DNA of 64,000 bases from the NCBI GenBank assembly GCA_944375905.1, contig CALWAS010000020.1:1-64000 (forward strand). Reading direction: 5' to 3'. Source of the DNA: an uncultured Bacilli bacterium (lineage in GTDB: Bacteria; Bacillota_I; Bacilli_A; RFN20; CAG-826). How positions within the stretch are numbered: position 1 is the stretch's first letter; each line of letters begins with the position of its first letter. Made by a program: the position numbers and the translations under genes. The notes below the pieces were generated by a model. It was given only the letters and a program-made list of their open reading frames with translations. It made no database searches and had not been told where the DNA came from. Positions 211-54,073 of this stretch are shown here, in pieces.

Positions 211-3200
211 ATGCCAGGCAACCGTTTTTCCTTCGTCTTCGACGGCCTCGAGGACGTCTCCTATCCTTCCTTCCAAGCCGAAAAGGCCATCAGGAGCTAT
301 TCCCCGGGCAACCGGCCGAATGCCTTTTCCTTTCTCAAGGGGATATACCTCGAGAGCCGAACGCCGGGAACCTATCGCGACCTCGTCTTCCGCCTCGAAA
401 GCGACTTGCCCGGCTTTTCTTTCAAGCCCGTGCGCCTCTCGCGCCTTTCCCTTGGCGAGAAGGCGATCATCGACGCCTTCTCCTATTCTCTCGACGAGGA
501 GGCCCTCTATCGGCTCGCCGAGCCGCGGAAGGTTTCGCTTAAGGCCGTGCTTTATAGCGGGGAAACGGCAATAGCCTCCCACGATGCGACCATCGAGGCC
601 ATGCCGATCGAACACGCCCTCGGATCCGGCGCGGAGAAAGTCCTTCTCGCTAGCTACGTCACTCCCGACGAAGCTCTCCTCGAAAACGCTTTCGAAAGGG
701 CCAAGAAGCTAGGTCGGGAAAGGAAGGCCTCCTTCGAAGGCTATCTCGAACGCGACCCGAACGACGTATTGCTCGTCTCCGAAGCCCTATACGAGTCCTT
801 GCTCGAGGAAAAGATCGAGCTTCTCCGCCTCCCAAGCGGGAAAGGCAGGGCCCTCGAGCGCGTGTCGCTTCCCGGATCGACCTTGCTTGACAAGAAAGGA
901 ACGAGCCTCGACATCGCCCTCGTCTATGCTTCGCTCGTCGAGAAGGCCGGGCTCCATCCCTCGATCATCCTTTACGAGGGAGGGGCGGCGGTGGGCGTCT
1001 GGCTCGACGAGGAATCGTTCCAAAGCGCCTATCAGGACAATGCGGCAGGGCTTCTCGTCATGGCCTCCAAGGGTTATGACCGGCTCCTCGTCATCGATCC
1101 ATCGAGCGGCCTCGCTCCCCAGGAGGCCCGCGAAAAGGCCTATAAGGATCTCGAGGAAGGCCGCCTCTTCGTCGGGTCGATCGATGTCTTCGCCGCGAGG
1201 AAGGAACATATCGTTCCCCTTCCGACGCCCGATGCGAAGGGGACGCTAAGCTTCCCTTCATTCGAAAGCGAGAGCTCCGGGAAGATGGCGACCATCGACG
1301 AGAACAGCCATCGCTACATAGATAGCGAGGACCGCGGGGACAAAAACCGCTACGACCATTGGCTCGACAAGCTTCTCGACCTCAACTTGAAGAACCGCTT
1401 GATCAACCTTCGCCCCGGACGGAACACGCCCCAGCTCCTCGTAAGCGAGGCGGAGGCTTTCCTCGACCTGCTCAAAGGCAACCGGAAGCTCGTCGTCGCC
1501 CCTTATGAAAGCTTCGTGACGAAGGAAAGGAAGGGCGAGCACCTGCTTGACTTCCCGTCGTCCTATTTCGGCAAAATCGCCAAGGAAAGCTATGAGAAAG
1601 GCATCGTCCCGTTCCTCCTATCGGGAGCGGAAGCCACCGACGACGTGATCAAATCGCTTTCGAGAAGGAGCAATACCGCCCTCGAGGAAAGCGGCAGCAA
1701 TCCCCTTTTCCTTACCGTCGGTCTCCTTCGCTATTTCGATAACGAGAAGGCAGCCGAGAAGATGAAGGGGGCGATGTACGCCCCGATTCTCCTTCTCCCG
1801 ATCAAAATCCCCCTCCGCAAGGGCGGGGCGCATTTTTCCTTTGAATACGAATACGACGAGATAACGGTTAACACCACGCTCTTCGAGTATCTCAACCAGG
1901 CATATGGAATCGACCTTACGCCGATAGAGGGAACTATCAGGAAGAAGGACGGACAGGTCGACCTTCGACTCATATACAACTACATAAGGGGCAAAATCGC
2001 CTCGAAGAAAGGCTTTGCCCTCATTGAAAATGCCTCGACGATTGGCCTTTTCTCTTTCGCCCACTTCGTCATGTGGGACGATTTGCGGCGGAGGAAAGAG
2101 GATCTATTGGCCAATCCGCACATCGCTTCGATGGTAAGCGGCAAGATTTCCTTTTCCGAGCCGAGCGGTCTCCTTTCGAGCAAGGAACTCGACGAGAAGG
2201 AAGAGCTTCTTCCGCTCCCCCTCCCGGCCGACTCTTCCCAGATAAAGGCCATCGACGATGCCCTCAAGGGGGCTAGCTTCGTGATGGATGGGCCGCCCGG
2301 AACCGGCAAAAGCCAGACGATCGCGAACATGATCGTCGCCTTCCTTGCAAAGGGAAAGCGCGTCCTTTTCGTTGCCGAGAAGGAAGTCGCCCTCGAAGTG
2401 GTCAAGCGCCGCCTCGACGAGATTTCCCTTGGACGGTTTGCCCTCTTTCTTTCCTCGTCGCGAACGGCGAAAGGCGACGTGCTGAAGGCGCTTGGCGAAC
2501 TGATCGGGCTCGGGCAGCTATCCTCCTCGAGCAAGTTCGATGAGGCGGCCGCTTCCCTCAAGGAAAAGACGAGGGAGCTGAATTCGCTCCTCGAAAGCCT
2601 CCATGGGCCTTCCTCTTTCCTCTTCTCGGTATCGGAAGCCATCGACGTTTACCTCGATACGATCGATTCGAAAGGCCTCTTCCGCTTCCCGATCGACCGG
2701 GCGCGGCGGCTTGACCGCGGCCTCTACGAGAAGGCCGTCGCTTCCCTTGAGCGACTATTCCGGTCCGACGAGAAAGTAGGGGGGCACCTTTCGAGCCCGT
2801 TCCTCCCCTTCGTCGGCTCTTCCTACAGCCAGCTTTCCCGGGATGCCCTTCTCAAGGATCTGAAGCCGCTGGTCGATCTCGACCAGGATCTCTACCTTGC
2901 CGAGCACAATGCTCTCTTAGGCTTCAACGGAATCCCAAAAACCAGGCAAAACGCCATTCTTTTGCGGGATATTTCGCTAATCGACGAGCAATCGGGCGGC
3001 ATTTTCGCGTCCTATTGCGCGAAGGAAAGCGACGAACGGGAAGAAAGCCGGATCCGTTCTTGCCTCAAAGACGTGGAAGCCTACGGGGCGGCGCGCAGGA
3101 AAATCCTTTCCCGCTTCAAGGAAGATGTCTATTCCCTTCAAAGGGAAGCCGTCCTTTCCTTCATGAAGGAATACCGCGAAGGCGGCTTCTTCGCCTCCCG

Positions 3201-6003: not shown

Positions 6004-8211
6004 ATGAACAAATTGCTCCACGATTCGCTCTTTTTGGTCGAAGATGAAGGCGGGATCGTCCGCCTTTCGGAAAGGCTCGAGCATCGCTCCTTGGCTCTCG
6101 AGACGCCGCCGAAGGCACTGGGCCTACCTCTTGAAAAGGGCGAGGTTTCGCTTGGGAGCCTCGTCTATCGCCTCGATGGGAACGGCCGCTTCTCGATTGA
6201 GAAAAACGGGGACAAGGCCTTTTTCGAGGTGCCTTTTGCCTACGATCCGCTCCGCACCTACGTCAAGGACAAGATAATCGACCGCGAGCACGGCCTTACG
6301 AAGGAAGGAAGCGGGAACGGCATCAGGCTCGACGACGGCTTCACTTACGAACGTCTCATTTCCTTTTCCCTTCCCAAGGATGCCGAGTTCTATGGCCTTG
6401 GCGACCACGTAGGTCCCCTTTCGAGAAGGGGATACGAGTTTGTCTGCTACAACACCGACGATCCGTCCGACCATAACGAAAACAAGAAAAGCCTCTACAA
6501 ATCCTTTCCCTTTTTGCTAATTTCGATTTTCGGAGGATACCTTGCCGTCTACTTGGACAGCACTTATCGGAGCCTTTTCGACTGCGCGGTCGAGGAAGGC
6601 TCGTTCAAGATCGCCGTTTCGAAGGGACCGCTCGATCTCTACTTTTCCTTTGCCGAGGACCCGAGGGAACTGCTCATTCGGGTTTCCAGCTTCCTTGGGA
6701 GGATGGCCATGCCCCCGCGTTACGCCCTCGGCGTCCAGCAGACGCGGTGGGGCTACAAAGACGAGGGCGAGGTGCTTTCCGTCGTCGACGGCTATAAGAA
6801 AGCCGGCATCCCCCTAAGTGCCGTCTATCTCGACATCGACTACATGGACGGCTATCGGGTCTTCACCTTCGACCCGGAAAGGTTCCCGGACCCCGCCGCC
6901 TTCCTCGAAAAGCTATCGAAGGAAGGAATAAAGGCCATTACCATCGTCGATCCGGGAGTCAAACTCGATAAGGGATACCGGGTTTACGAGGAACTCGTCA
7001 AAGACGGTCTTGTCGCGACTCTGGACGGCAAGACCTATGTAAATGAGGTGTGGCCGGGCGAAGCCGTCTATCCTGCCTTCAACGACCCGAAGTGCGCCGA
7101 GATGTGGGGAAAGGAGGTTGCCTCTTTCCTCGAGCTTGGGGTTTCCGGCTTCTGGAACGACATGAATGAGCCCGCTTCTTTCCGGGGCGAGCTGCCGGCC
7201 GAGGTGGACTTTGCCGGGGTGAAGCACGATGAAATGCACAACCTCTACGGCTTTTTCATGGCCAAGGCCACGGCCGCGGCCGTCGAGAAAAAGGGAAAGC
7301 GTCCCTTCATCGTGACCCGAGCCGCTTTCATGGGCAGCCAGCGCTATTGCGTAGGCTGGACGGGCGACAACCATAGCAACTTCGATTCGCTACGGCTTCT
7401 TCCTTCGCAAATAGCCAACCTCGGCATCAGCCTCTTCCCCTTCGTCGGAAGCGACGTCGGGGGCTTTTCGGGCGATGCGACCCCCGAACTCATAAGGAAG
7501 TGGGCTGCCTTTGCCGTTGCCATGCCGCTCTTCCGCAACCACTCGGCCATCAACACGAGAAGGCAGGAGCCCTATTTCTTCGATGAACGGACGGTCGAGG
7601 CCTATCGCTCGGCTGCCGAGCTTCGCTATCGCCTCGTTCCCTTCCTTTACGATTGGTGCTTCGTCGCCTCGATTGCCGGCGCTCCGATCGTCAGGCCGCT
7701 CTTCTTCGAGTTTTTCGAAGATCCCGAGACGAAGGATGTTTCCGACGAAATCCTTCTTGGGAAAGAGACGCTCATCGCTCCGTTCCTGAACCCGGGACCG
7801 GATGTCCGCTCCGTCTATCTGCCAAAGGGAACCCGCTGGTTCCCCTTCGAGTTCGGGACTCCGATCGAAGGCGGAAACTGGATCATCGCCAAAGGGAAGA
7901 AGGAGGGAATCCCACCCATCTATGTCAAGGAAGGATCCGTCATGCCGCTTTTCGAAGAGGGCTATTTCGATCTTTCCAAGAACCCGGAGACGATCGTCCT
8001 CAAGGCCTATCCGGGCAAGGGAAAGCATTATCACTATGTCGATGCGGGAGAAGGGCTTGCTTACAAAAGCGGGGAATACACCCTTCTCGAAATCCAGAAC
8101 AACGACGGGAAGCTATCGATCAAGAAGCTGCACGACGGCTACCCCATTTACAAAAAAGCCCGCGTCGAGACGATCGACGGGGCTTACGAAATCGACCTTC
8201 AGAAGCTGTAA
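6004..8211 (+). CDS. Glycoside hydrolase family 31 alpha-glucosidase
   Basis: 735 residues. Family GH31 retaining alpha-glycosidases release terminal alpha-glucose or related sugars. The catalytic (beta/alpha)8 barrel is clear: the nucleophile Asp386 is in WNDMNEPA and the acid/base Asp455 is in GWTGDNHS, with a GVQQTRWGY strand upstream and a DVGGF loop downstream. An N-terminal beta-sandwich precedes the barrel and a beta C-domain follows it. No signal peptide is visible, so it is probably cytosolic and acts on imported oligosaccharides. The ATG follows the stop codon of the helicase gene with no gap, so the two are probably cotranscribed although functionally unrelated. The 3' end overlaps the opposite-strand gene by 13 bases. 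Substrate specificity cannot be read from the sequence. Confidence 0.92.
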   Translation: MNKLLHDSLFLVEDEGGIVRLSERLEHRSLALETPPKALGLPLEKGEVSLGSLVYRLDGNGRFSIEKNGDKAFFEVPFAYDPLRTYVKDKIIDREHGLTKEGSGNGIRLDDGFTYERLISFSLPKDAEFYGLGDHVGPLSRRGYEFVCYNTDDPSDHNENKKSLYKSFPFLLISIFGGYLAVYLDSTYRSLFDCAVEEGSFKIAVSKGPLDLYFSFAEDPRELLIRVSSFLGRMAMPPRYALGVQQTRWGYKDEGEVLSVVDGYKKAGIPLSAVYLDIDYMDGYRVFTFDPERFPDPAAFLEKLSKEGIKAITIVDPGVKLDKGYRVYEELVKDGLVATLDGKTYVNEVWPGEAVYPAFNDPKCAEMWGKEVASFLELGVSGFWNDMNEPASFRGELPAEVDFAGVKHDEMHNLYGFFMAKATAAAVEKKGKRPFIVTRAAFMGSQRYCVGWTGDNHSNFDSLRLLPSQIANLGISLFPFVGSDVGGFSGDATPELIRKWAAFAVAMPLFRNHSAINTRRQEPYFFDERTVEAYRSAAELRYRLVPFLYDWCFVASIAGAPIVRPLFFEFFEDPETKDVSDEILLGKETLIAPFLNPGPDVRSVYLPKGTRWFPFEFGTPIEGGNWIIAKGKKEGIPPIYVKEGSVMPLFEEGYFDLSKNPETIVLKAYPGKGKHYHYVDAGEGLAYKSGEYTLLEIQNNDGKLSIKKLHDGYPIYKKARVETIDGAYEIDLQKL

Positions 8212-40097: not shown

Positions 40098-40952
40098 ATG
40101 GAAAAGGTATCGAATGGACATTACGAAGAGGAAAGGGCGCTTTACGGCCTTCGCGACGCGGAGGTCGAAAACTGCCTTTTCGCGGGTAAGGAAGACGGCG
40201 AGTCGCCATTGAAGGAATGCCGCGACATCGTGGTGAAGGGCTGTTCTTTCTCCCTTCGCTACCCGCTTTGGCACCTTCGGGGCGGCAAGATCGAGGACAT
40301 GACTTTGACCGACCTTGCCCGGGCCGGGCTTTGGTATGGGGAAGACGTCGAAATCGTTTCCTCGAATCTGCTTGCCGTCAAGTTCATGCGCGAGTGCAAA
40401 CGGATATCCTATCTCGGTTCGCGGATCGAGGGCGATGAATTCGGATGGAAGAGTTCGTCGATTCGCCTGAAGGACACGAGCGTCAAAAGCATGTACTCCT
40501 TCCTCGATAGCAAGAACATAGAGGCGAAAGGGATGGACCTCGACGGAAAGTACTCGCTTCAGTACATCGAGGATTCGCGCTTCGAGAACTGCTCGTTCAA
40601 GGGCCGCGACGCCTTCTGGCACGCCAAAAACGTCACGGTCGTCGATTCTTCCTTCGAGGGAGAATACCTTTCCTGGTACAGCGAGGGCCTTACCCTCATT
40701 CGCTGTCACATCAACTCGCACCAGCCGCTTTGCTACTGCAAGAACCTCCGCCTGATCGACTGCACCTTCGGCCCGGAAAGCGATCTGGCCCTCGAAAACA
40801 GCGAGGCGAACGGAACGATCAAAGGGCGCGTTCCCTCGATCAAGAACCTGGCCGCCGGCCGAATCGAAGTCGAAGAAGTGGGGGAACTCGTCCACGAGCC
40901 CGACGTTTACCAATTGAAAGGCGAAATCGTCGTCAAAACCCCTTCCAAATGA
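40098..40952 (+). CDS. DUF3737 right-handed beta-helix protein
   Basis: 284 residues. The sequence strongly matches DUF3737: EERALYGLRDAEVENCLFAG, KEDGESPLKECRDIVVKGCS, SLRYPLWHLRGGKIEDM and ARAGLWYGEDVEI. Repeats of about 20-22 residues with small, aromatic and Cys positions indicate a parallel beta-helix. Function is unknown. No signal peptide, so it is probably cytosolic. TAGGAT ends 8 nt before the ATG, a possible leaderless start; a TTGACA at 40071 is not spaced for it. Confidence 0.9.
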   Translation: MEKVSNGHYEEERALYGLRDAEVENCLFAGKEDGESPLKECRDIVVKGCSFSLRYPLWHLRGGKIEDMTLTDLARAGLWYGEDVEIVSSNLLAVKFMRECKRISYLGSRIEGDEFGWKSSSIRLKDTSVKSMYSFLDSKNIEAKGMDLDGKYSLQYIEDSRFENCSFKGRDAFWHAKNVTVVDSSFEGEYLSWYSEGLTLIRCHINSHQPLCYCKNLRLIDCTFGPESDLALENSEANGTIKGRVPSIKNLAAGRIEVEEVGELVHEPDVYQLKGEIVVKTPSK

Positions 40953-42327: not shown

Positions 42328-43182
42328 TCAGACAATGAGGGCGGAGATAACCGCGATGAGGTTGTTGAGGACGTGGGCGGCTACGGATCCTTCGAATCCA
42401 AAGCGGTGGTAAACGAAGGAAAGGATGAGCCCGGCGAATAGGTAGTCGGGGAAGTTGAGCCACTCGTTCAACGAGGAGAAGTCCTTCATGTGGATGAGAC
42501 CGAAAACGACGCTTGCCAAGAGGTAAGCAACGGCTGGATGGATGCGCATCCCCAGGTTGAATAGGCCAAGACGATAGGTGATTTCCTCGCAAATCGGCCC
42601 TATGAATCCCAAAACGACGACGGCAAAGAGAGGGGAGGCATCGACGATGGAGACGACTGTCTCCTGATTTATCGAGGTTCCGCCGTCAAGCGCGGACACG
42701 ACCATACCCCAGAGCATGGACACGACGATGAGGGCAATGCCGCCCAGCAGCCCCCAAAGGAGGTTGCGCCATTTTGCGAAGGTCGACGCAATGCGCCTGA
42801 TTTCAGGGGATATGATCGCCAGCAAGACGAGGAAAAGGACGATGTAGGTAGCGTAATTCAGAAAGGCCGTTCCCTCGACCGAGGAGGCGTAGTCCTGAAT
42901 CGCTTGGGAAAGCGAGCCGCCCGTAAGGCCGGCTCCGATGAGAACTCCTTGGGCCAAGGCGATTTGAATGAACGAAACGATGAAGCCGAGCACCTGAAAG
43001 CCGAGCCAGCCGACGACGAAGAGGGCGATTTCGCGAAAAGTCCCGAGCGGAAGCATGTTCCTGAAACGCTTGGCTCCCGGATCGTCCAACGAGGAGCGGC
43101 ATTTTGGGCAGGTGCTGCGTCCCGCGTCGATCCTCGAGCCGCATTCCGGGCAGTTCTTCTCGTGGAAAAAGGTGAGCGCCAT
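42328..43182 (-). CDS. Zinc-ribbon CPBP (CAAX-type) intramembrane protease
   Basis: 284 residues. N-terminal zinc ribbon CPECGSRIDAGRSTCPKCRS, then about seven hydrophobic segments. The catalytic motifs of CPBP glutamic proteases are present: CEEITYRLGLF (Glu-Glu-x3-Arg), FGLIHMKD and AAHVLNNLIA. ATG 43182 is chosen because TATAAT lies 7 nt upstream; the long N-terminal extension (Tyr-Ala repeats) is out of the transcript. Family members cleave lipidated or membrane-bound peptides. It is cotranscribed with TraX. Confidence 0.88.
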   Translation of the reverse strand: MALTFFHEKNCPECGSRIDAGRSTCPKCRSSLDDPGAKRFRNMLPLGTFREIALFVVGWLGFQVLGFIVSFIQIALAQGVLIGAGLTGGSLSQAIQDYASSVEGTAFLNYATYIVLFLVLLAIISPEIRRIASTFAKWRNLLWGLLGGIALIVVSMLWGMVVSALDGGTSINQETVVSIVDASPLFAVVVLGFIGPICEEITYRLGLFNLGMRIHPAVAYLLASVVFGLIHMKDFSSLNEWLNFPDYLFAGLILSFVYHRFGFEGSVAAHVLNNLIAVISALIV

Positions 43183-43189
43183 TGACGTG

Positions 43190-43195
43190 ATTATA
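43190..43195 (-). promoter_or_regulatory. -10 box for CPBP gene
   Basis: TATAAT on the - strand, 7 nt before ATG 43182. Confidence 0.6.
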
Positions 43196-43252
43196 TACAA
43201 ATTTTCGAGAATGTATGCGTATGCGTGCGTTGCCTTCGCGCGAGGCCGCGCA

Positions 43253-43258
43253 TACAAT
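43253..43258 (+). promoter_or_regulatory. -10 box for the giant-protein operon
   Basis: TACAAT ends 7 nt before ATG 43266, no Shine-Dalgarno sequence. The upstream DNA has short GCGTATGCGT-type repeats. Confidence 0.55.
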
Positions 43259-43265
43259 TTAAAAC

Positions 43266-46200
43266 ATGCAAAGGCTCTTAACGATTTTCGACGCGATCCC
43301 GGTCGATCCCTCTTTTATCGCTCAAGTGACGAACTACGTGACGCTTTCATTGTTCATCGCCTGCCTTGTTTGGCTTGTGTGTGCATTCTTGCGGGGGCTT
43401 GCCAGGGGATGGCGGTACGGAACCTACCGCCTCGTGATGTTCCTTCTACTCATTGCCATTGCCTTGCTTACCCTTCGGCCGATCGTCAATGCCATCGGAA
43501 ATCTCGATCTCACCGTCTTTGGCATCGGAACGAGCGTTCAACTGCCGACATTCGTGGTTTCGATCAACGGGCAGTCGGTTGCCATTGCGACGGAAGGGAC
43601 TACCGCCTTCGAAATCGTAAGCGGATACATAGCGAACCTGATGAAGGCCACCGGCAGCGATTTGCCTCCGGACGTTCTTTCGGCCTATGCGCTGACTTTC
43701 GCGACGAGCCTCGTCTCGCTCGTGCTCGTCTTGGTAGACGCTTTCCTGATCAGCATCTTCGGGACTTTCTTCGTTTTCATCCTTTGGCACCTTGCCTTCA
43801 AGCGCTTCATTCCGAAGGCAACGAGGAAGGCGTCCTATAAGAAAGGCAAGGTCTGGGGCGGATTCTCCTCCCTTGTCGTGAGCGCTTGCTGCATAAGCCT
43901 TTTCTGGTTCCCGCTTACAAGCGTCGTCAACTCGCTGAACGGGGCATGGCAATCGGGCCAGCTTAGCGAAGAGGACAAGACGACCCTCCATACCATCGAC
44001 GACCCGACCTACCAGGCCATTTCCTCCGTTTTGGATGCCTACGACAACTCGGTCTTTGCCGAAGCCTTCTTCAACTGGACCCGCAACAACGAAGGAAAGA
44101 CCCTCGACGTTTCTCTCATGGAGTTCCTTACCGGAGCCGAGATGAGCCTAGGCGACAACGAGAAGGTTTCCGTTTCCTTCCTCAACGAACTCACGACGTT
44201 CGCCAAGGCATTTACCATCGTCATCCAGGGCGGCGTCCTATCCCAAGGGACGTTCGATTCCGCCCGGATCCCGCTCCTTTTGACCACTTCCATGGCCCCC
44301 GAATTGCTGAGGACGCTAGGCTCTAGCCAGCTCGTGACCGGCATAATGCCCTACGGTCTCACCGTCCTCGAGAACATGGATGGGGTAGCCGAATACGTCA
44401 AAGTCGGCACCGGCATCGATTTCTCCGGCAACTACGAGCTCACCTTCAACGAGCTTGCCGACATCTACGACTCGGTCCTCGACTCGACGCTTCTCGATAA
44501 TCTCGTTGATCCCTCGACGGGCGAACTCGGTTCCAGCTCCGCCGTGATGGAAGATGTCCTGAGCGAAGGCAACAAAGCGACGGTAACCGGGGTGTTCGAT
44601 GCCCTCGACGGAGAAAACCTCCACATATTCGACGCCGTCATCGAAAGCGCCTTGACCATTCAGGCATACAAGGACATTACGAGCGGGAAGGCCGCTTCCG
44701 AAAGCGAGCTCACGGTTAGCGACTTCCTTCCCTACGTTACCCTTGACGAATTCACGCCCGTGGATGGAAAGCCGACGACGATCCCCGAGTCCTATCGGGA
44801 CATCAAGTGGGGAAGCATTTTCGCGGACTTCTTTGCCTCGACCGTGAACCTGGTCAACGTCTCCGAGGAACTCTACCTCGCCGTCTGCAATGCGATGCCG
44901 AGCTGGAACGGCGAGCCGTCGCCTTCTTATCAATTCGACGCCATCCTCGAGCCGATACTCGACGATTTCGAGGCCGCGAAGGAAGCGCTCGTCGGAAACG
45001 GGGAGCCGGATGAGGGAGAAGAAGCGGTGACTCCGCTTCTAGGAACGGAATTCATCCTCAATGCGTCCCCGAAGATCGTCAAAATGCTAGCCTCGAGCGT
45101 CAATTCGTCGCTTAACCTTTCGGGCGAGAAAGCCATCGATCTTTCGAACGTTGCCGCGACTTTCCGCTCCGACCAAAGCACGATCCTCCCCGAGTTCAGC
45201 GCCCTTCTCGACATCGTCGGCGACTTCGCGGGGACGGAGGAGGGAAAGGAATTCCTCCTTCATCTCGACGCGATGCCCGGCATCTATTTTGCCCCTGACG
45301 GCAGTTTCGTCGGAATCGACGAGGGGCTTGTCGAGGGACTGCAGTCCGGCCTGCGCGGCCTCGACGCTTCCCTCATCGCCTCCGAGGCGCTTCCGCCCAT
45401 CTTCGAAAATCTCCTTGCCGGGAGCGATTCCATTCTCGGCGATTTAGGCGAGGGGCTCGTCTTCGACTTCGACGTCGACGATGTCGGGTCCGAGCTTGCC
45501 ACGATTCTCGGGGCCGTCTCTTCCTCGCAGGGGCTCATTTCCTACCTCCTGACCCTCGGGGACGTTTCCTCGCTCAAGGGACAGGCCCTCGAAAGCGCCG
45601 TCGACACCATTTCCTACTACCAGGACGAACTCGTGGACTTCCTCCAAGCCGTCGCCGGCAGCCAAGTCCTCAATCCGGTGGTCGACGGAAAGCGGAATTC
45701 AAACATCGCAACCTTGCTTGGCAAAGTCTTCGAAGCGGTGGGGATCGACGATGTCGAAAGCCTTTCCTCGACCCTTGGCTCGCTTTCGGAAAGCGAGACC
45801 CAAGCCGAGATGGAGAGCTTCGTCAATGTTCTCATCGACGTAATAGATAGCGGCATCGTGCCTTCGATATCGAGCGGCAGCGTGTCATTGACATCGCTTG
45901 AAAGCGTCTCTTTCGAGGAGATGTTCTCCTCTTTTGACGAGAGCATCATTTTCTCGAGCTGCTTCGGCAGCGTCATCGACTCCCTGCTTAGCGAAAACGC
46001 GACCTTCAAGGACATGATCGACAGCGGGCTTTCCTTCGAGAACGTCACTTCCTGGAGGGAAGAGGGCCGCAATCTCGACATCCTGGTCCGCTCCATCAAC
46101 TTGCTCGGCGCCAAAGGCCTTCTCGACGGCGGGTCGATCGATTTCTTCTCAAGCGATCCCGAAGCCGTCAAGAACGTGCTTCAAGTCCTTTCCTCCTCTT

Positions 46201-49200
46201 CCCTCTTCGTGGAGAAGACGGATGGCGGATACTATTACCGTTTCCCGTCCTTCCTAGGCGACCTTATGGGCCGCTACCTCGATGACGCAAGCGACGCTTC
46301 CTCCTTCTTCGTCACCCCCGAGGGGAGCGGAAAGGACGCTCTCATCGCCGATATCGAGTCGACCGCCCTTTCCTCTGATGGCAGCGACGTGCTCAGCTCG
46401 GACGAAGTCATCGCGGCCAAGGAACTCTGGAACGGCGAGTCGGCCGTCCTTTCGGATGTCATCCGCTCGATTTTAGCTTCCGGCGGCATGGAGTCGTTTG
46501 GGGACGGCAAGATCGACCTTGCGAGCGTTTCGGCCGCTTCCATCGACGCCTTGTTCCACGATTCGGCCTCCCTAAAAATATTCGGTCGGGTCCTCAACTA
46601 TTCAATCTACAAGGCCATTGCGGGCGAAGTCTCTTCTGCCTTTGCCGATGCATCCGACAGTCCCAACCTTGCCGCTTTCTGGTTCGATTCGCTTTCCTCT
46701 TACGAGGAAGCGGCCGTCCCCGGCGGCATCTTCGATGAAGAAGCCGACGCCATGTCGACTTTCCTTTATGCCGTCCTCGATCCCGAGACCGGGATCGTGG
46801 GGGAGAGCGGCGGGGAATCCCGCTTGGATTTCGACAGCATCGACCTAACGGAAATTTCCACCTACTACCTGATTCGCCCCCTTCTCGACGGCCTTTCCTC
46901 GTCCCGCCTCTTCAATACGCTCGGCAACAAGGAGTACACGACCTACGAATACATGCTTTCCTCGATTCTCGAGGGAACCCTCTTCGACAAGGGAGAAGGC
47001 CTTGTGAAAGTCGCCTCGGTCCGCGTATCGCTAGGAAGCGACCCGACCTTCGAGGCCCTCAAGTCGGCCTGGGAAAAGGAAAACGATGCCATCGTCAATA
47101 CGCTAGATGCCCTCGGGGAAGCCGACGTCGATGTCTCGACCGTCCAAAACGACCCGATGGCTTTCTTCGAAGGCGGATCGAGCTATGAGGGCCAGCGGGC
47201 CAAACTCGAGAACCTTCTCGTCGCGGCCGGCGATTCCAAAATCGTCCGCCCGGCCATGGTCGACATGGTCGAAAAGGCGGCCGACGAACTCAAGGAAGGC
47301 ACCGAAGTCGATGCCGATTATCTCCTTTCCGCGAGCCAAGCCGATTACGACGTGGAGGTGCGGCGCCTTTCCTTCGTCTTGATGTACGGCGCGATGATCG
47401 GCACCATCGACACTTCCGACATCGACGTCCTTTTCGAGAACCCGGCGGCCGATGGCTTCTTCCGCGAGGCGGCGACTTCCCGGGTCCTGAACCCCGAGCC
47501 GGGCGCGGACGGCACTTACGGCTTCTTTGAGAAACTCGTTCGCGACGTCCTTCTCGAGAGCGATTATTACCTCGCCGGGGGCGAAGCCGCCGGAGACTTA
47601 TCCGAGGAAAGGAGGGTTGACGCCGTCCTTGCTTCCATCGACGGGGCCGGGGACCGTTATGTCGCCTGGCCAAGCGAAGCCGACTCGCTTTCCGAGGCGA
47701 TGGGCGCGATCCGCGACAATGGCGTTTCCCTTTCGGACGCGACCGACCTTGCGTCTTTCTTCAACGGGGAAGGAAGTGCCGACGGGCCGGACGAAGCCGG
47801 CCGCGACAAGCTTTACGCGATTCTTTCTTCCGTCAACGATTCCGGCCTCCTTTACCCAGGGCTTGGCCTCCGCTTCTCGGCGGCGATCGGGGATGTCGGA
47901 TCGGCGAGCGTCGATCTCGGGGAAGCCAATTTCTACTACCCCGGCAAGAGCGGCGAAGGCTTGCTAAGCGCTCGCTATTCCTCTTCCGAGCTTCTTCGTT
48001 TGAGCGATGTCGTCATGTATGCCCAGGACCTTAGCGAGGTCGACTTCAACGACATAGCGACAATCGACGGATCCTCGGCCGGGAACCTTCTCGCGACGAT
48101 GGCGAATTCGAGGATCTTCAACTCGCTTTCCTCCGAGGCCGCGGAAGGAAGCGCGACTTCCTTCGTTTCGATCATGAAGGAAATCCTTTCCTCGCCCACG
48201 CTCGCTCCCTATTACTTCAGCTCCAATAGCCCAAAGGACGAAGAACTTGGCTACCTCGATGCCGAGGACAAGGCCGCGAAGGCCGTCTCGGCCCTCTTCC
48301 CCGAGGTCAAAGACGATTCGGGAAAGGAAAGCAACGATACCGCTTCCCTCAACGGGGAAAGCGAGAGCAGCCTTGCCTCGATCATCGATTACATTGCCGA
48401 GAATGACCTTTCCTCGGTCCTCGACGACCTTCAGGGCGGAGCCCTTCCTTCGAGCGAGGCCGCCGACGGCAAAGCATCCTCCCTCGACATGCTCACGGAG
48501 CTTTTGAAGCGGATCGACGGCAACGACATCCTCTTCGACATCGTGCCTAATGCCATTGCCTCGATTACCGACGGCGGCGATTCGGCCTCGATTAACATCG
48601 ACGGCATCGACCTTGCAAGAAGCGATCCCTTCTTCCCGTATCGAAATGGGGAAGGAGCCATCGATTCAGCCAATTTCACAAAGCGGTATGGCTCCGAGGA
48701 AATTGGGAGCGTCATGGGAATCGCCGATGCTTTGAATAAGAACCAGGCGATCTTCGGAGCGATGGGAAGCACGGGCTCGGGCATCGGGATGAATGAGATT
48801 TCCGAGCTTCGGAACCTTCTCGTTTCCCTTTCGGATTCCGATGTCTTCAACGGCTATGTCGGCAAAGTTACCGCCGGCGTTTCGATCGGCGGGGTCGATG
48901 TGCCGGAAGCACTCAACGTCTTCGACGAGACCCTATTCTACATAATGGTGGATAGCGGCCTTTATCTCAGGGCATATGACCCGGTAATCGACGCCGAAAC
49001 GGGCTTCGTTTCGGCCGTGGACAAACTCAAGAATGCAATCCTTGGCCTTTCGAGAGACGAGGAACGCTCCGAGGTAGACCATTTGATCGGCAACGATAAA
49101 CTCGACGAAGGGCTGCTTGTGACCGCTCTCAACGAATTGGGAACGGTCGAAGGAGTGGGAGGTGAGCGGCGCCTCACCGTCGACTTCGCTAGCGGCAGCG

Positions 49201-51116
49201 GAACCAACGTCATGGATTTCGCTTCCATCGCTCCCGATTCGCTCAATCGCCTTTTCCGCGCCATCAACAAAGTCGCGATCGCGGATGGCGTTTTGAGGGG
49301 TGGCGTCGAGGTGCTCCTCGGCGATACGATCAACCTTTCGATGTGGAGCCAAATCGAAACCAACCGGCGCCTCGCCAATGGGGAAGAATCCCTTCGCATC
49401 GCCAAGATAAGCTACATCGGCGAGGGAGAGGCACCGGTTCTCTATTACACCAACGGCGCCGGCAAGACGCCGGTCGTGGCGGAAGATGGAGTCTATAGCT
49501 TCCTGCGTAACCGCGATATCGACGATGGGGAAATCGACGTCGATTCCTCGTTGATCGGACCGACCGACGTCTACATCAAGGATGGCGACGCCTACGTTTC
49601 CATCTTCGTCTACGATTCTGACGGGTCTTCGGATTGGCTTTCCGACAACTTCCTCATCTCCTACGACGCCTCGACGGCCCACCTTCTCACACGGGCAGAT
49701 TACGATGCCTATACCATCGATCTCGTAACCGATTTCCTTTCTTCCTGCCTCTGGGGCGAGGAAAGCGAGTCCTATTCCAGGATCGATAACGCCACCGACT
49801 TCTTGATGCCGAGAGATGGCGGGAGTTCCTCTTCTTTATACGAAATAATCCGCTTCCTCCTTGCCAAGGGAAGCCTTTATGGCGGGGCCTTCGACGAAGA
49901 GGGAACCTTCCTCGGAGCCGATGGGGCGTCGCTCGAAGAGGCCGCGACGCCGATATCCTACACGAGCGGGACCGCCCTCATGCGCAACTTCGTCAAGACC
50001 CTCGGGACGAGTTCAACCGACTTCCCGGTCAATGTCGACCTTGCCAAAGTCTTCGTCTATGCTAGGGGCGAAGATGCGGTGGGGAACGAGCGTTCCCTCC
50101 TCAAGGCGATCTATTCGTCGGTGGCCGCCGAGGCGAATTACGGCGGCAAAGACCGCGAAGCTGTTTATCCGTGGGGGATTTCCTTCCTCGAAGACAATCT
50201 CGGCGACGTCATCTTGACCTTGGCCGCGATGGACATCGGCGAAATCGATGGCTCGAGTCTAGGCGTCATCAACTCGATTCCTTCTTCGTCAGACGGCATC
50301 GTCCTTCTCGAAGCCTATAGCAAGCATGCCTACTTTGCAGTAGCCGACAACTCGGTCTCAAAGATCAACGATTTGATTTCGAGCGCCAATGGCTTGCTCC
50401 TCGGCGTCGCGTCGGGGTCGGAGGCGGAAGCCTCGCTCTCCGCCTCTTTGGCCAACAACGTCATAACTTCGCTTTTCGCGAGGCTCGTGTCTGCCTCGAA
50501 CGAGGTCTTTGCCACGGAGTCTGGCGAGGCGATCCGCCCGCTTACCATGGGCTACCTCTTCGCAAAGGAAAGCGCCTCGAGCGTATATGGCAAGGTCTCG
50601 TCGGTAACGAGCTCGGAAGGCGTCCTCGAAAGCGCCACCGTCGGCTCGATGGGCAAGCGGGCTGCCGCCTTCGATGCCAACATGGGGCTCATGGCGATGG
50701 AGAACGACGGCCTTTCCTTCAATAGCGGCAGGTCCCTTTACGCTAGCCTCTTCGAGACTCTTGCCGCCTTTGCCTTCACCGATTCGAACTTCGGGGCGAA
50801 CGATGCATTCGCGAAGGGATTCACGAGCAATCATCGCGAGCTTCTTTCCACCCTGGCCAATTGCGAGGCAAGCGAGCGCGGGAAGGCGGCGGCCAGCACT
50901 CTCCTCGAAGCCTATTTCTACGATGTCGTCATCATGCGCGGCTTGCTCAACGTGCCGCTAAAAGGCTATGTTTCGGTCATGTCCTTCCCGGAAATCGCCT
51001 TGAGCGTCCCTTCGCTCTCGACGCGGTATGCGGAAAGGCATGATATCAGCGCGACTTCCTATTTCGGATCCAACGGCTTCCTCTCCCTTTTGGAACTCCC
51101 GGCGGGGGAACTTTGA
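43266..51116 (+). CDS. Giant membrane-anchored repeat protein, 2616 residues
   Basis: The N-terminal 215 residues have about four hydrophobic helices (about 25-45, 47-70, 137-165, 187-210), reminiscent of CvpA-like anchors. Basic loops (RGLARGWRYGTYR; HLAFKRFIPKATRKASYKKG) lie after the first and third, so by the positive-inside rule the remaining 2400 residues are outside. That part is Ser/Asp/Glu-rich with a recurring motif: a hydrophobic helix, Ser or Asp, then a turn, as in LSSSRLFNTLG, MANSRIFNSL, AATSRVLNPEP, AAGDSKIVRPA, VAGSQVLNPVV and LSDSDVFNGYV, spaced about 80-180 residues. No catalytic motif is recognised. It is coupled to yigZ and pepP downstream. Confidence 0.8.
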   Translation: MQRLLTIFDAIPVDPSFIAQVTNYVTLSLFIACLVWLVCAFLRGLARGWRYGTYRLVMFLLLIAIALLTLRPIVNAIGNLDLTVFGIGTSVQLPTFVVSINGQSVAIATEGTTAFEIVSGYIANLMKATGSDLPPDVLSAYALTFATSLVSLVLVLVDAFLISIFGTFFVFILWHLAFKRFIPKATRKASYKKGKVWGGFSSLVVSACCISLFWFPLTSVVNSLNGAWQSGQLSEEDKTTLHTIDDPTYQAISSVLDAYDNSVFAEAFFNWTRNNEGKTLDVSLMEFLTGAEMSLGDNEKVSVSFLNELTTFAKAFTIVIQGGVLSQGTFDSARIPLLLTTSMAPELLRTLGSSQLVTGIMPYGLTVLENMDGVAEYVKVGTGIDFSGNYELTFNELADIYDSVLDSTLLDNLVDPSTGELGSSSAVMEDVLSEGNKATVTGVFDALDGENLHIFDAVIESALTIQAYKDITSGKAASESELTVSDFLPYVTLDEFTPVDGKPTTIPESYRDIKWGSIFADFFASTVNLVNVSEELYLAVCNAMPSWNGEPSPSYQFDAILEPILDDFEAAKEALVGNGEPDEGEEAVTPLLGTEFILNASPKIVKMLASSVNSSLNLSGEKAIDLSNVAATFRSDQSTILPEFSALLDIVGDFAGTEEGKEFLLHLDAMPGIYFAPDGSFVGIDEGLVEGLQSGLRGLDASLIASEALPPIFENLLAGSDSILGDLGEGLVFDFDVDDVGSELATILGAVSSSQGLISYLLTLGDVSSLKGQALESAVDTISYYQDELVDFLQAVAGSQVLNPVVDGKRNSNIATLLGKVFEAVGIDDVESLSSTLGSLSESETQAEMESFVNVLIDVIDSGIVPSISSGSVSLTSLESVSFEEMFSSFDESIIFSSCFGSVIDSLLSENATFKDMIDSGLSFENVTSWREEGRNLDILVRSINLLGAKGLLDGGSIDFFSSDPEAVKNVLQVLSSSSLFVEKTDGGYYYRFPSFLGDLMGRYLDDASDASSFFVTPEGSGKDALIADIESTALSSDGSDVLSSDEVIAAKELWNGESAVLSDVIRSILASGGMESFGDGKIDLASVSAASIDALFHDSASLKIFGRVLNYSIYKAIAGEVSSAFADASDSPNLAAFWFDSLSSYEEAAVPGGIFDEEADAMSTFLYAVLDPETGIVGESGGESRLDFDSIDLTEISTYYLIRPLLDGLSSSRLFNTLGNKEYTTYEYMLSSILEGTLFDKGEGLVKVASVRVSLGSDPTFEALKSAWEKENDAIVNTLDALGEADVDVSTVQNDPMAFFEGGSSYEGQRAKLENLLVAAGDSKIVRPAMVDMVEKAADELKEGTEVDADYLLSASQADYDVEVRRLSFVLMYGAMIGTIDTSDIDVLFENPAADGFFREAATSRVLNPEPGADGTYGFFEKLVRDVLLESDYYLAGGEAAGDLSEERRVDAVLASIDGAGDRYVAWPSEADSLSEAMGAIRDNGVSLSDATDLASFFNGEGSADGPDEAGRDKLYAILSSVNDSGLLYPGLGLRFSAAIGDVGSASVDLGEANFYYPGKSGEGLLSARYSSSELLRLSDVVMYAQDLSEVDFNDIATIDGSSAGNLLATMANSRIFNSLSSEAAEGSATSFVSIMKEILSSPTLAPYYFSSNSPKDEELGYLDAEDKAAKAVSALFPEVKDDSGKESNDTASLNGESESSLASIIDYIAENDLSSVLDDLQGGALPSSEAADGKASSLDMLTELLKRIDGNDILFDIVPNAIASITDGGDSASINIDGIDLARSDPFFPYRNGEGAIDSANFTKRYGSEEIGSVMGIADALNKNQAIFGAMGSTGSGIGMNEISELRNLLVSLSDSDVFNGYVGKVTAGVSIGGVDVPEALNVFDETLFYIMVDSGLYLRAYDPVIDAETGFVSAVDKLKNAILGLSRDEERSEVDHLIGNDKLDEGLLVTALNELGTVEGVGGERRLTVDFASGSGTNVMDFASIAPDSLNRLFRAINKVAIADGVLRGGVEVLLGDTINLSMWSQIETNRRLANGEESLRIAKISYIGEGEAPVLYYTNGAGKTPVVAEDGVYSFLRNRDIDDGEIDVDSSLIGPTDVYIKDGDAYVSIFVYDSDGSSDWLSDNFLISYDASTAHLLTRADYDAYTIDLVTDFLSSCLWGEESESYSRIDNATDFLMPRDGGSSSSLYEIIRFLLAKGSLYGGAFDEEGTFLGADGASLEEAATPISYTSGTALMRNFVKTLGTSSTDFPVNVDLAKVFVYARGEDAVGNERSLLKAIYSSVAAEANYGGKDREAVYPWGISFLEDNLGDVILTLAAMDIGEIDGSSLGVINSIPSSSDGIVLLEAYSKHAYFAVADNSVSKINDLISSANGLLLGVASGSEAEASLSASLANNVITSLFARLVSASNEVFATESGEAIRPLTMGYLFAKESASSVYGKVSSVTSSEGVLESATVGSMGKRAAAFDANMGLMAMENDGLSFNSGRSLYASLFETLAAFAFTDSNFGANDAFAKGFTSNHRELLSTLANCEASERGKAAASTLLEAYFYDVVIMRGLLNVPLKGYVSVMSFPEIALSVPSLSTRYAERHDISATSYFGSNGFLSLLELPAGEL

Positions 51117-51121
51117 TCGAG

Positions 51122-51730
51122 ATGGCCGAAATAGAGACCGTTTCTTCTTCCTTTTCGATGGAGGAAAAGGTGCTTTCCAGCCGTTTCATTGGGGTTTTGC
51201 TGCCGCTTTTGGGCAGGAGCTTCGAGGCGGCGAAGGAAGGAATAGCCCTTCTTTATCCCAAGGCGACCCATTATTGCTATGCCTTCAAGAAAGGGAACCT
51301 CGAAGGGAGCTCCGACGATGGGGAGCCTTCCCATTCGGCCGGGCTTCCGCTGCTTGCCATCCTCAGGGGATCGGGCCTCGACGAGGTCGCCCTCTTCGTC
51401 GTCCGCTACTTCGGTGGGACGAAGCTCGGGCTCCCGCGCCTTACCCACGCCTATCGGGAAATGGGGAAGGCCGTCGTCATGAAGGCCCCGCGTTCCATCG
51501 TGAAAGAGGGTCTCGAGGTGCTTCTTGAGATTCCCTACCCCGATTTCGATAGGGCAATGGACCGGATCCGCCGGCTCGGGATCGAGGCCGGGAAGCCCTC
51601 TTTTTCCTCCTCGGTTGCCCTATGGGTCAAAGGCGATGATAAAATCATCGGGTCCTTCCTCTCCCTTTTCCCCTCGATCGAGGCAAAGGAAGAGAAGAAG
51701 GCCCTTATCTATCTGGAGAAAAAGCAATGA
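51122..51730 (+). CDS. yigZ: YigZ/IMPACT-family protein
   Basis: 202 residues from ATG 51122. YigZ/IMPACT motifs: HYCYAFKKGN, SSDDGEPSHSAGLPLL and VVRYFGGTKLGLPRLTHAYREM. The C-terminal domain is the usual ferredoxin-like half. A role in RNA or translation control is suspected for the family. The ATG is 5 nt after the stop of the giant gene; an in-frame TTG at 51113 overlaps that stop. Its own stop overlaps the start of pepP (ATGA). Confidence 0.9.
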   Translation: MAEIETVSSSFSMEEKVLSSRFIGVLLPLLGRSFEAAKEGIALLYPKATHYCYAFKKGNLEGSSDDGEPSHSAGLPLLAILRGSGLDEVALFVVRYFGGTKLGLPRLTHAYREMGKAVVMKAPRSIVKEGLEVLLEIPYPDFDRAMDRIRRLGIEAGKPSFSSSVALWVKGDDKIIGSFLSLFPSIEAKEEKKALIYLEKKQ

Positions 51731-53016
51731 TCAAAGCCAGCGAATATGCCGAGCGGCGGCTCCGCCTCCTCAACATGATGGAGCCCTCGTCGGCGATGGT
51801 CGTCTTCTCGGGCGTCAGCAAATGCAAAAGCGCCGACGAAGACTACCCCTTCGAAGTGGCCAGGAACTTCTATTACCTCACGGGAATCGACCAGCCCGAC
51901 AGCATCCTCCTCCTCATCAATAGCGAAGGCGAACAAAAGGAATTCCTCTTCGTCTCGCCCTTCGACGAAAGGAAGGAGAAATGGTATGGCAAGCGCCTTA
52001 CCTTCGAGGAAGCGGAAACCCTAAGCGGCATCCATAACGTCCTCGTCAACTCGTCCTTCCAATCGAAGCTCGATGCCACCCTTTCGAGCAAAGTCGCCCA
52101 GTATGGCGAAGTGTCGACCCTTTACCTCGACCTCGATCGCGAAGTCAAGATCGCCGACGAAACCTATACCCGCGATTACCTATCGACGGTAAGCAAGGCA
52201 TACGACGGCCTAGCCATCCTCGATGCCTATCCGCTCATAACGACCCTGCGCTTAAGGAAATCGACCGCGGAAATCCAGGAATTCCGGAGCGCCATCCGGA
52301 CGACCCACATCGGCATCAACAGCGTCCTCCACATCCTCGAGCCGGGGCGGAAGGAATACGAGCTTGCCGACGCCTTCCTCCACGCGATCAACGACGATAA
52401 CGGCTATCAAGGGCTCTCGTTCCCGACCATCATGGCCAGCGGACGCCATACGACGTGCCTCCATTACCCGACGCCCTTCGACACGGTGAAGGACGGGGAC
52501 CTCGTCCTCATGGACCTCGGCGCCCGAACCGGCTATTACTGCGCCGACGTGAGCCGCACCTACCCGGCGAACGGCAAATACTCCCCGGAACAGCTTGCCG
52601 CCTACCGCCTCGTGCTCGAAGCCAACAAGATGGTCGCCGACATGGCCAAGCCCGGGCTTACGATTGCCGAGCTCCAAAAGGCCGTTATCGACCTCTATGA
52701 ACGGGAACTCCCGCGCATCGGCCTCCTCGCCGAAGGGGAAAGGGTGGAGGATGTCTATTTCCACAGCGTCTCCCATTTCATCGGACTCGATACCCACGAT
52801 CCCTATTTCTCGCCCAACGACAAGCGCTATCGCGACATCCCCCTCGAAGCCGGGATGGTCATCTCCGACGAGCCGGGCCTATACTTCTCCCGCCTTGGAT
52901 TCGGCATCCGGATCGAGGACGATCTCCTCATTACCGAACGGGGATGCGAAGTCCTCACCCGGGACATACCGAAGGAACCGGAGGCCATCGAGAAGCTGCT
53001 CCAAAGTCAAAGGTAA
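51727..53016 (+). CDS. pepP: Xaa-Pro aminopeptidase, M24B
   Basis: 429 residues. Removes N-terminal residues before proline. The AMP_N domain (about 1-150) precedes the pita-bread catalytic domain with metal ligands Asp in LMDLGARTGYYCADVSRTYP (two Asp), His in SHFIGLDTHD, Glu in VISDEPGLYF and Glu in GFGIRIEDD. All are present. GGAGAAAAAGCA precedes the ATG. It is the last gene of the giant-protein operon and is followed by a terminator. Confidence 0.95.
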   Translation: MIKASEYAERRLRLLNMMEPSSAMVVFSGVSKCKSADEDYPFEVARNFYYLTGIDQPDSILLLINSEGEQKEFLFVSPFDERKEKWYGKRLTFEEAETLSGIHNVLVNSSFQSKLDATLSSKVAQYGEVSTLYLDLDREVKIADETYTRDYLSTVSKAYDGLAILDAYPLITTLRLRKSTAEIQEFRSAIRTTHIGINSVLHILEPGRKEYELADAFLHAINDDNGYQGLSFPTIMASGRHTTCLHYPTPFDTVKDGDLVLMDLGARTGYYCADVSRTYPANGKYSPEQLAAYRLVLEANKMVADMAKPGLTIAELQKAVIDLYERELPRIGLLAEGERVEDVYFHSVSHFIGLDTHDPYFSPNDKRYRDIPLEAGMVISDEPGLYFSRLGFGIRIEDDLLITERGCEVLTRDIPKEPEAIEKLLQSQR

Positions 53017-53026
53017 GCTTCCGAAT

Positions 53027-53048
53027 AAGCACCCGACCGGGTGCTTTT
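53027..53048 (+). terminator. Terminator after pepP
   Basis: GCACCC-GACC-GGGTGC followed by TTTT. Confidence 0.88.
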
Positions 53049-53131: not shown

Positions 53132-54073
53132 ATGGACCTCGTTTCACTCGTCAACGAAAGCCTCATCGCCTCGAAGACGGGGGAAACGACGACGGTCGTG
53201 AAGGTCATCGGGACCGATTTCTCGAAGGCCCTCATCGGCTGTTCCAACAAAAAGTTCTACCAGCTCTCCAGCGCCCTTCGCGAGGGGACGATCCGCTTTG
53301 TCGACGAAGCCGTCCAAAGCGAAGTCGTTTCGTCGTTCAATTCGCTGAGCGCCTCCGAGGCGGCCGAGAAAAGGCGGAAGAAGGCCATTGAGGAACGCCT
53401 CCAGAAGGAAGGCAGCGAGAAAAGAATCGTCGTCTGGGACTCCCGCGAGAAAGAGAAGGCCTTCTATCTCGTTCCCGACTTTTCCTCTTATTTAGTCATC
53501 GACTGCACGGAAAAGGGCAGCGACGTTCCCGACCTTTGCCCTTCTTTCATCGGCCCGATCAGCGTTCCCGACGGAACGGAAGAGGGGACGCGCTGCGAAA
53601 GCTTCGAGGCCCTTTGGCTCTTTTCGGCCGTCCGTCCTTCCGACGTCGACCAGGAAGGTAACCTTCTCGCTTCCTATTGGAAGAACCGGGCCAACGGCTT
53701 TGCCGGGCTAAGCCGCGGCAGCAAGGCCCTCCGCAAGGAAAAGCCCCTTTATCACATCGCCTATCTCGACGGGGCATTCCGGAAGCTGGGCCACCTCGAA
53801 GCGAGGAAGAAAGTCTACATCCCAACCTATGCGAAGCTGGCCGTTGCCACCGAGGGATTCCGCCGGCTGAAGGAGCTCTACGCGAGCGGGCAGAAGATGA
53901 TCCTTCTCGACAATGGGCAGTCGGCCTTCCGCGACCTCTCGCGAAACGTCGTGGACTTCGTGAACGATCCGACGCGGCCCCTGACCCATTCCCTCGTCCT
54001 CAGGATGCTCCTCGAAGGCGACATCGAGGTGAGAGACGGGGAAGTGGTCGACAACGTCGATGCCTTGGCCTGA
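53132..54073 (+). CDS. Unknown protein, 313 residues
   Basis: I do not recognise this family. It is soluble, with an N-terminal beta-rich part, a charged helix (about 70-95, RRKKAIEERLQKEG) and a C-terminal segment reading HIAYLDGAFRKLGHLEARKK and VYIPTYAKLAVATEGFRRL then GQKMILLDNG. The last part suggests an alpha/beta fold handling a nucleotide-like ligand, but this is a guess. TATAAT at 53100-53105 with AAAGGAAG between gives a normal short leader. A terminator follows the stop. Confidence 0.65.
   Translation: MDLVSLVNESLIASKTGETTTVVKVIGTDFSKALIGCSNKKFYQLSSALREGTIRFVDEAVQSEVVSSFNSLSASEAAEKRRKKAIEERLQKEGSEKRIVVWDSREKEKAFYLVPDFSSYLVIDCTEKGSDVPDLCPSFIGPISVPDGTEEGTRCESFEALWLFSAVRPSDVDQEGNLLASYWKNRANGFAGLSRGSKALRKEKPLYHIAYLDGAFRKLGHLEARKKVYIPTYAKLAVATEGFRRLKELYASGQKMILLDNGQSAFRDLSRNVVDFVNDPTRPLTHSLVLRMLLEGDIEVRDGEVVDNVDALA

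Follow-up and report, generated by a model that had tools for sequence, protein, structure and literature searches.

A predicted membrane-anchored giant protein with a degenerate helical repeat, encoded in a fixed gene slot of uncultured Bacilli

Described systems and the host of the giant protein

Animal guts commonly harbour bacteria of the orders around Mycoplasmatales, most of them uncultured and many of them wall-less. CvpA/Colicin_V proteins (PF02674) have a four-helix membrane domain with both termini outside, and the membrane helices of MarP (Rv3671c), a protein of ~397 amino acids with a trypsin-like protease, belong to this family. Gli349, the giant gliding and adhesion 'leg' protein of wall-less Mycoplasma mobile, combines an N-terminal transmembrane segment (a single one in the published scheme) with 18 repeats of ~100 amino acids and a distal binding foot (PMC7052211). 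The giant adhesins that Gram-positive bacteria anchor through LPXTG motifs and sortase are very long, repeat-built, Ser/Asp-rich surface proteins. A 2024 survey, in which family CAG-826 was predicted to be peptidoglycan-deficient and order RFN20 was reported to be sortase-free, without srtA or srtB, read the missing sortases as reduced surface protein expression (PMC10868615).

The window analysed here, a stretch of 64,000 nucleotides from an uncultured Bacilli bacterium, encodes a protein of 2616 amino acids that resembles each of these systems in part. It shares with CvpA a four-helix membrane domain and the predicted outside location of both termini, but carries ~2,390 extra outside residues and falls below the Pfam threshold. 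As in MarP and its homologs, four N-terminal membrane helices precede a large outside domain, which in the giant is predicted to be an all-helical repeat rod instead of a protease: no family match to a trypsin-like serine protease domain was obtained, and the AF2 model is all-helical. The giant resembles Gli349 in its wall-less host, its size, its N-terminal membrane segment, its many degenerate repeats and its outward distal end, whereas it has four predicted membrane segments; the comparison is one of design only, and relation by descent is not claimed. Unlike sortase-anchored adhesins, it has no LPXTG-type tail, its anchor is N-terminal, and its repeats are helical rather than beta. The alpha-solenoids of the HEAT/ARM type are also chains of stacked helices and gave the top Foldseek matches for both AF2 models described below, but these proteins are eukaryotic and intracellular, and no HEAT/ARM sequence model matched the giant in the Pfam/NCBIfam search.

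The host is assigned by inference to family CAG-826 of order RFN20, through one member of its family (f1), Candidatus Alloenteromonas pullistercoris (L066); the genus Alloenteromonas was first described as Enteromonas, in order RFN20 and family CAG-826 (PMC8035907), and later renamed (PMC12451612). No PF00905 transpeptidase was found in the window genome by a search whose control was positive in 10 of 14 genomes, which agrees with the published prediction of peptidoglycan deficiency for CAG-826 (PMC10868615). Within f1, the transpeptidases of penicillin-binding proteins (PBPs) are patchy, as genera g37 and g39 have them and no listed member of the window's genus does.

The gene, its predicted anchor and its repeated exterior

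The giant is encoded by a real gene. The reading frame is intact (ATG start, 2616 codons at 43266-51113 plus a TGA stop) and takes up 12.3% of the window, as had been estimated (12%) in the sequence-only reading that first described an anchored protein with a degenerate helical repeat here. Of the 37 genomes of its genus that were searched, 31 carry an ortholog; identity across the N-terminal 960 residues is 29-60%. Purifying selection (dN/dS 0.12-0.22 in eight ortholog pairs) resembles that on the adjoining membrane-protein genes and is even along the length of the giant, without a diversifying tip. No Pfam or NCBIfam model matched at E up to 1, PHROGs and PADLOC likewise had no match at E up to 0.1, and a PDB sequence search gave nothing usable; the description of the protein as apparently undescribed thus holds for these four libraries, none of which gave a confident match to a known cytosolic family. 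No recognised binding domain was found in the giant, and no enzyme signature was found in its exterior by the Pfam/NCBIfam searches. A scan of genome contigs (many from incomplete assemblies) with the single sequence found no relative, and an alignment scan found 28. Relatives range from 888 to 3,921 residues and differ in unit number.

Table 1. Features of the giant gene, its product and the conserved neighbouring genes in the window (boundaries of the repeat units are approximate)
Feature	Residues	Positions	Strand	Basis
Whole gene of the giant protein		43266..51116	+	ORF calling, orthologs, dN/dS
Predicted CvpA-like four-helix membrane anchor	15-230	43308..43955	+	hydropathy, hhalign, AF2, conservation
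Conserved membrane-proximal exterior, predicted all-helical	231-959	43956..46142	+	conservation, family alignment, AF2
Repeat unit 1	~960-1187	46143..46826	+	968-1073 matches 1203-1287
Repeat unit 2	~1188-1379	46827..47402	+	1188-1330 matches 1380-1532
Repeat unit 3	~1380-1591	47403..48038	+	1281-1429 matches 1480-1641, score 155
Repeat unit 4	~1592-1818	48039..48719	+	1381-1461 matches 1592-1677; AF2 pLDDT mostly >85
Repeat unit 5 (partial)	~1819-1940	48720..49085	+	1533-1672 matches 1760-1923
Distal region, candidate tip	~1941-2616	49086..51113	+	few homologs
CPBP (Rce1-like) intramembrane protease, conserved divergent neighbour		42328..43257	-	family match, slot conservation
YigZ/IMPACT protein, conserved downstream neighbour		51113..51730	+	family match, slot conservation
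PepP Xaa-Pro aminopeptidase, conserved downstream neighbour		51727..53016	+	family match, slot conservation
Promoter-like TTGCCT-17-TACAAT, ends 8 nt before the ATG of the giant		43230..43258	+	weak evidence
Terminator-like hairpin closing the giant-yigZ-pepP unit		53027..53046	+	sequence

No hydropathy segment rises above threshold after residue 222; the four before it (20-48, 50-80, 136-179 and 196-222) correspond to AF2 helices at 15-47, 49-68, 135-178 and 195-230. Because the loops after TM1 (45-53; 2 K/R, 0 D/E) and TM3 (175-197; 8 K/R, 0 D/E) are basic, the positive-inside rule and the lack of a later transmembrane segment predict that the N-terminus and residues ~230-2616 (~2,390) lie outside, in line with the earlier placement of about 2400 residues beyond four N-terminal helices with basic loops. 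The C-terminus (...SLLELPAGEL) has no LPXTG motif, transmembrane helix or basic tail. Between TM1 and TM2, the basic loop is conserved in the family as FLRGLxRGWRYGTYRLV. Profile comparison indicates that the anchor is a remote CvpA-like four-helix membrane domain, although the giant itself is below the Pfam threshold: a profile of the family's first 240 columns matched small CvpA proteins of the same order over 185 columns with an hhalign probability of 97.7% and, in this one comparison, E 1.7e-12, and control profiles of TraX and CPBP reached 0.5% and 1.3%. PF02674 did not match the giant at E up to 1, matched 2 of 27 orthologs weakly (best E 0.0029), and scored 23.4 and 19.7 bits at the N-terminus of two giants, where the curated Pfam cut-off is 29.3 bits. 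The CvpA-like nature of the anchor had not been remarked upon in the sequence-only reading.

The exterior is acidic (382 D/E against 139 K/R), with 12.6% serine and four cysteines, and so matches its earlier description as Ser/Asp-rich and almost cysteine-free. Its membrane-proximal region is kept in both short and long family members, and residues Y259, S262, D281 and E643 are invariant. AF2 models were made of residues 1-1180 from an alignment of 57 sequences (mean pLDDT 81.9, pTM 0.57) and of residues 1100-1960 from 38 sequences (mean pLDDT 81.1, pTM 0.73), and consist almost entirely of short stacked helices in a solenoid-like arrangement. With neither model did Foldseek yield a match at E <= 0.001; the nearest PDB folds were HEAT/ARM-type solenoids (importin-beta, SF3B1, CAND1 and Pds5), none of them significant, with best E of 1e-3 to 1e-2 and TM-score <0.2, so that these predictions suggest a fold class only, the helical solenoid. 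Only two to five sequences align in the distal region, and in one pair of relatives (L032/L033) conservation is lowest over the last ~300 residues, which is not so in another (L099/L100).

The degenerate repeat is real but is more limited, and of longer period, than had been thought. Self-comparison of the giant by blastp found no repeats, and because the whole-profile self mode of hhalign also gave no matches, 150-column pieces of the family profile were compared with the whole profile, with shuffled columns as controls. This revealed units offset by 192-243 residues, with a top score of 155, whereas shuffled columns reached at most 26. An artefact of wrongly registered homologs was rejected as the source of the signal, which survives with the four closest orthologs only (72 against 29) and weakly with the single sequence of the giant (28 against 21.5). 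At least five units of ~190-235 residues lie between ~960 and ~1940, and repeats are demonstrable only from there (more weakly from 846) to ~1940. The short motif proposed earlier as the repeat, in the loose form [SD]x[IVL][FLVY][NRDP], is enriched, with 20 occurrences in the giant versus 5.7 in shuffles (maximum 12 in 200), but the true duplicated unit spans ~200-230 residues and holds about two copies of the motif. Among 75 family members, a 23-residue motif profile grown from sites in the window (consensus LEDLLAAIADSKLLNPVLPGVLN) detects up to 200 sites, whereas shuffled sequences yield none. All 13 of the listed motif sites fall 0-3 residues past the end of a predicted helix, as do 14.7% of positions (p ~2e-11), and the motif is, by these models, a turn element. 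The length of family members varies with the copy number of modules: the region equivalent to residues 1400-1880 occurs four times in a row in a relative of 3921 amino acids (L103) and twice in one of 3058 (L101), and the region equivalent to 1577-1844 occurs three times in one of 2672.

The gene slot and the distribution of the family

Three families of the order (f1, f3 and f5) keep the giant in one fixed slot, in which genes for Trx, TraX and CPBP are divergent from those for the giant, YigZ and PepP. The giant and YigZ genes overlap (TTG/TGA at 51113-51116), as do those of YigZ and PepP (by 4 nt), and to this extent the coupling to yigZ and pepP noticed earlier was accurate. The striking conservation of the arrangement suggested that the giant might be functionally linked to YigZ, PepP and CPBP, but this was rejected: 12 genomes without the giant, three of them from the window's genus, have the same genes around a cleanly empty slot, in which the CPBP and YigZ matches lie roughly 70-200 bases apart. 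Since the arrangement persists around the empty slot, none of YigZ, PepP, CPBP, TraX and Trx requires the giant, and since the slot is repeatedly and cleanly empty, the giant is dispensable. A tree of the flanking proteins, four in number (a quick tree under a simple model, counting gain and loss alike as changes), requires eight changes to explain the absence of the giant, at least seven of them forced by well-supported branches. That three families share one slot makes repeated loss of an ancestral gene a simpler reading than gain.

Several single loci depart from this pattern. One full-length giant (L118, in G205) lacks the usual TraX-CPBP and YigZ-PepP neighbours, which implies at least one move of the gene. 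In another genome (L136 in G070, 2223-7753), ~5.5 kb between YigZ and CPBP, in which the family profile finds little, is probably a strongly diverged giant. The frame is split in two in L029/L074 (922+1409 amino acids), L024 (397+2454) and L109 (485+977), through either assembly error or real frameshift and decay before loss. The TACAAT upstream of the giant in the window is found at about the same distance from the start in L032 and L033, and other relatives have a GGAGG site; translation of the giant may therefore be leaderless in the subclade of the window, L032 and L033.

Outside the order, nine further families of the class have long frames (up to 4803 amino acids) whose N-terminal 200-400 residues match the family profile, with E down to 4e-31. 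This set is also CvpA-like (hhalign 98.5%) and lacks the RFN20 gene neighbourhood. No giant from outside the class was among the matches listed for a phylum-wide sample. The span of the family across the class Bacilli had not been anticipated in the earlier description. An origin from phage, plasmid or defence systems was rejected, as the family was found in no phage contigs or plasmids and the giant had no match in PHROGs or PADLOC.

Possible functions of the giant protein

The giant may best be viewed, with moderate confidence, as an accessory, membrane-anchored extracellular stalk or adhesin. Its stalk anatomy is read from the membrane anchor, the conserved base, the rod of tandem units and the outward distal end. 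The CvpA-like domain would hold it in the cytoplasmic membrane so that both ends lie outside; a conserved, all-helical base of ~730 residues would stand on the membrane; from residue ~960, a chain of helical-solenoid units of ~200-230 residues would lengthen the rod, its copy number setting the reach; and the most distal ~680 residues would form a less conserved end. The distal or side surface might then bind the host, mucus or other cells, and the giant might serve bacteria without sortase-anchored surface proteins as a long adhesin or holdfast. Dispensability, variable length, an acidic and Ser-rich exterior, and the lack of enzyme signatures all fit an accessory adhesin or spacer, the functional class that was named at the outset and is still the best one, although adhesion itself is only inferred. 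Against an adhesin, no recognised binding domain was found, even purifying selection is not typical of an adhesin exposed to immunity, and in other proteins CvpA domains have been linked with envelope stress and export, not adhesion (PMC6705877).

It is also conceivable, but unlikely, that the function resides in the CvpA-like part, as a small transporter, a channel or an element of envelope stress, and that the ectodomain is a regulatory or substrate-gathering arm, as in MarP with its four N-terminal helices and periplasmic domain (PMC4992679). Such a role would suit the profile match of the anchor to CvpA, the basic cytoplasmic loop RGWRYGTYR, in which conservation of the membrane part is strongest, and the need for CvpA in the resistance of E. 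coli to deoxycholate (PMC6705877). However, the window genome keeps a separate, ordinary CvpA of 269 amino acids, the exterior has no enzyme signature, and invariant residues are found there as well. Somewhat less probable still is a structural coat or envelope scaffold, in which many copies of the rod would form a protein layer replacing the lost wall. A host without PBP transpeptidases, one large conserved gene per genome, and even purifying selection speak for a coat, but the gene has been cleanly lost from its slot again and again, even in close, likewise wall-less relatives from its genus, and is also present where PBPs remain (f3 and genus g39), so the giant is not a consequence of wall loss. 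Empty slots and the occurrence of the gene in both walled and wall-less relatives also make the envelope-spanning scaffold suggested earlier unlikely, if an essential one was meant. An appendage for contact-dependent antagonism, predation or leg-like motility seems improbable: length and repeat design do resemble legs of the Gli349 type, and giants occur in tandem pairs in other families of the class, but the slot has no toxin, motor or secretion genes, and the defence and phage libraries gave no match.

If the giant is indeed a stalk or adhesin, the class-wide family, unrecognised by the four family libraries searched, is a concrete candidate for surface attachment of sortase-free Bacilli, and the CvpA fold would be extended to a new role as the anchor of very long outside domains. 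More speculatively, an unnamed superfamily of CvpA-anchored giant helical solenoids might constitute the main long-range surface structure of mycoplasma-related, partly wall-less Bacilli, replacing sortase-anchored proteins, with a reach tuned by gain and loss of ~200-residue units and a use as legs or stalks for attachment or movement. Repeated, clean absence from one fixed slot provides natural pairs of bacteria with and without the giant for comparison.

Some genes near giants also deserve mention. In other families of the class, CvpA-anchored giants are found in tandem (L161, L162 and others; 2640+1327 and 2249+881 amino acids), and a BspA-type leucine-rich-repeat surface protein (L153:7850-11248) adjoins a CvpA-anchored giant. 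The window itself also encodes a DUF6939-like protein at 53132-54073 (24.2 bits; Pfam cut-off 27) and a DUF3737 protein at 40098-40952 (317 bits).
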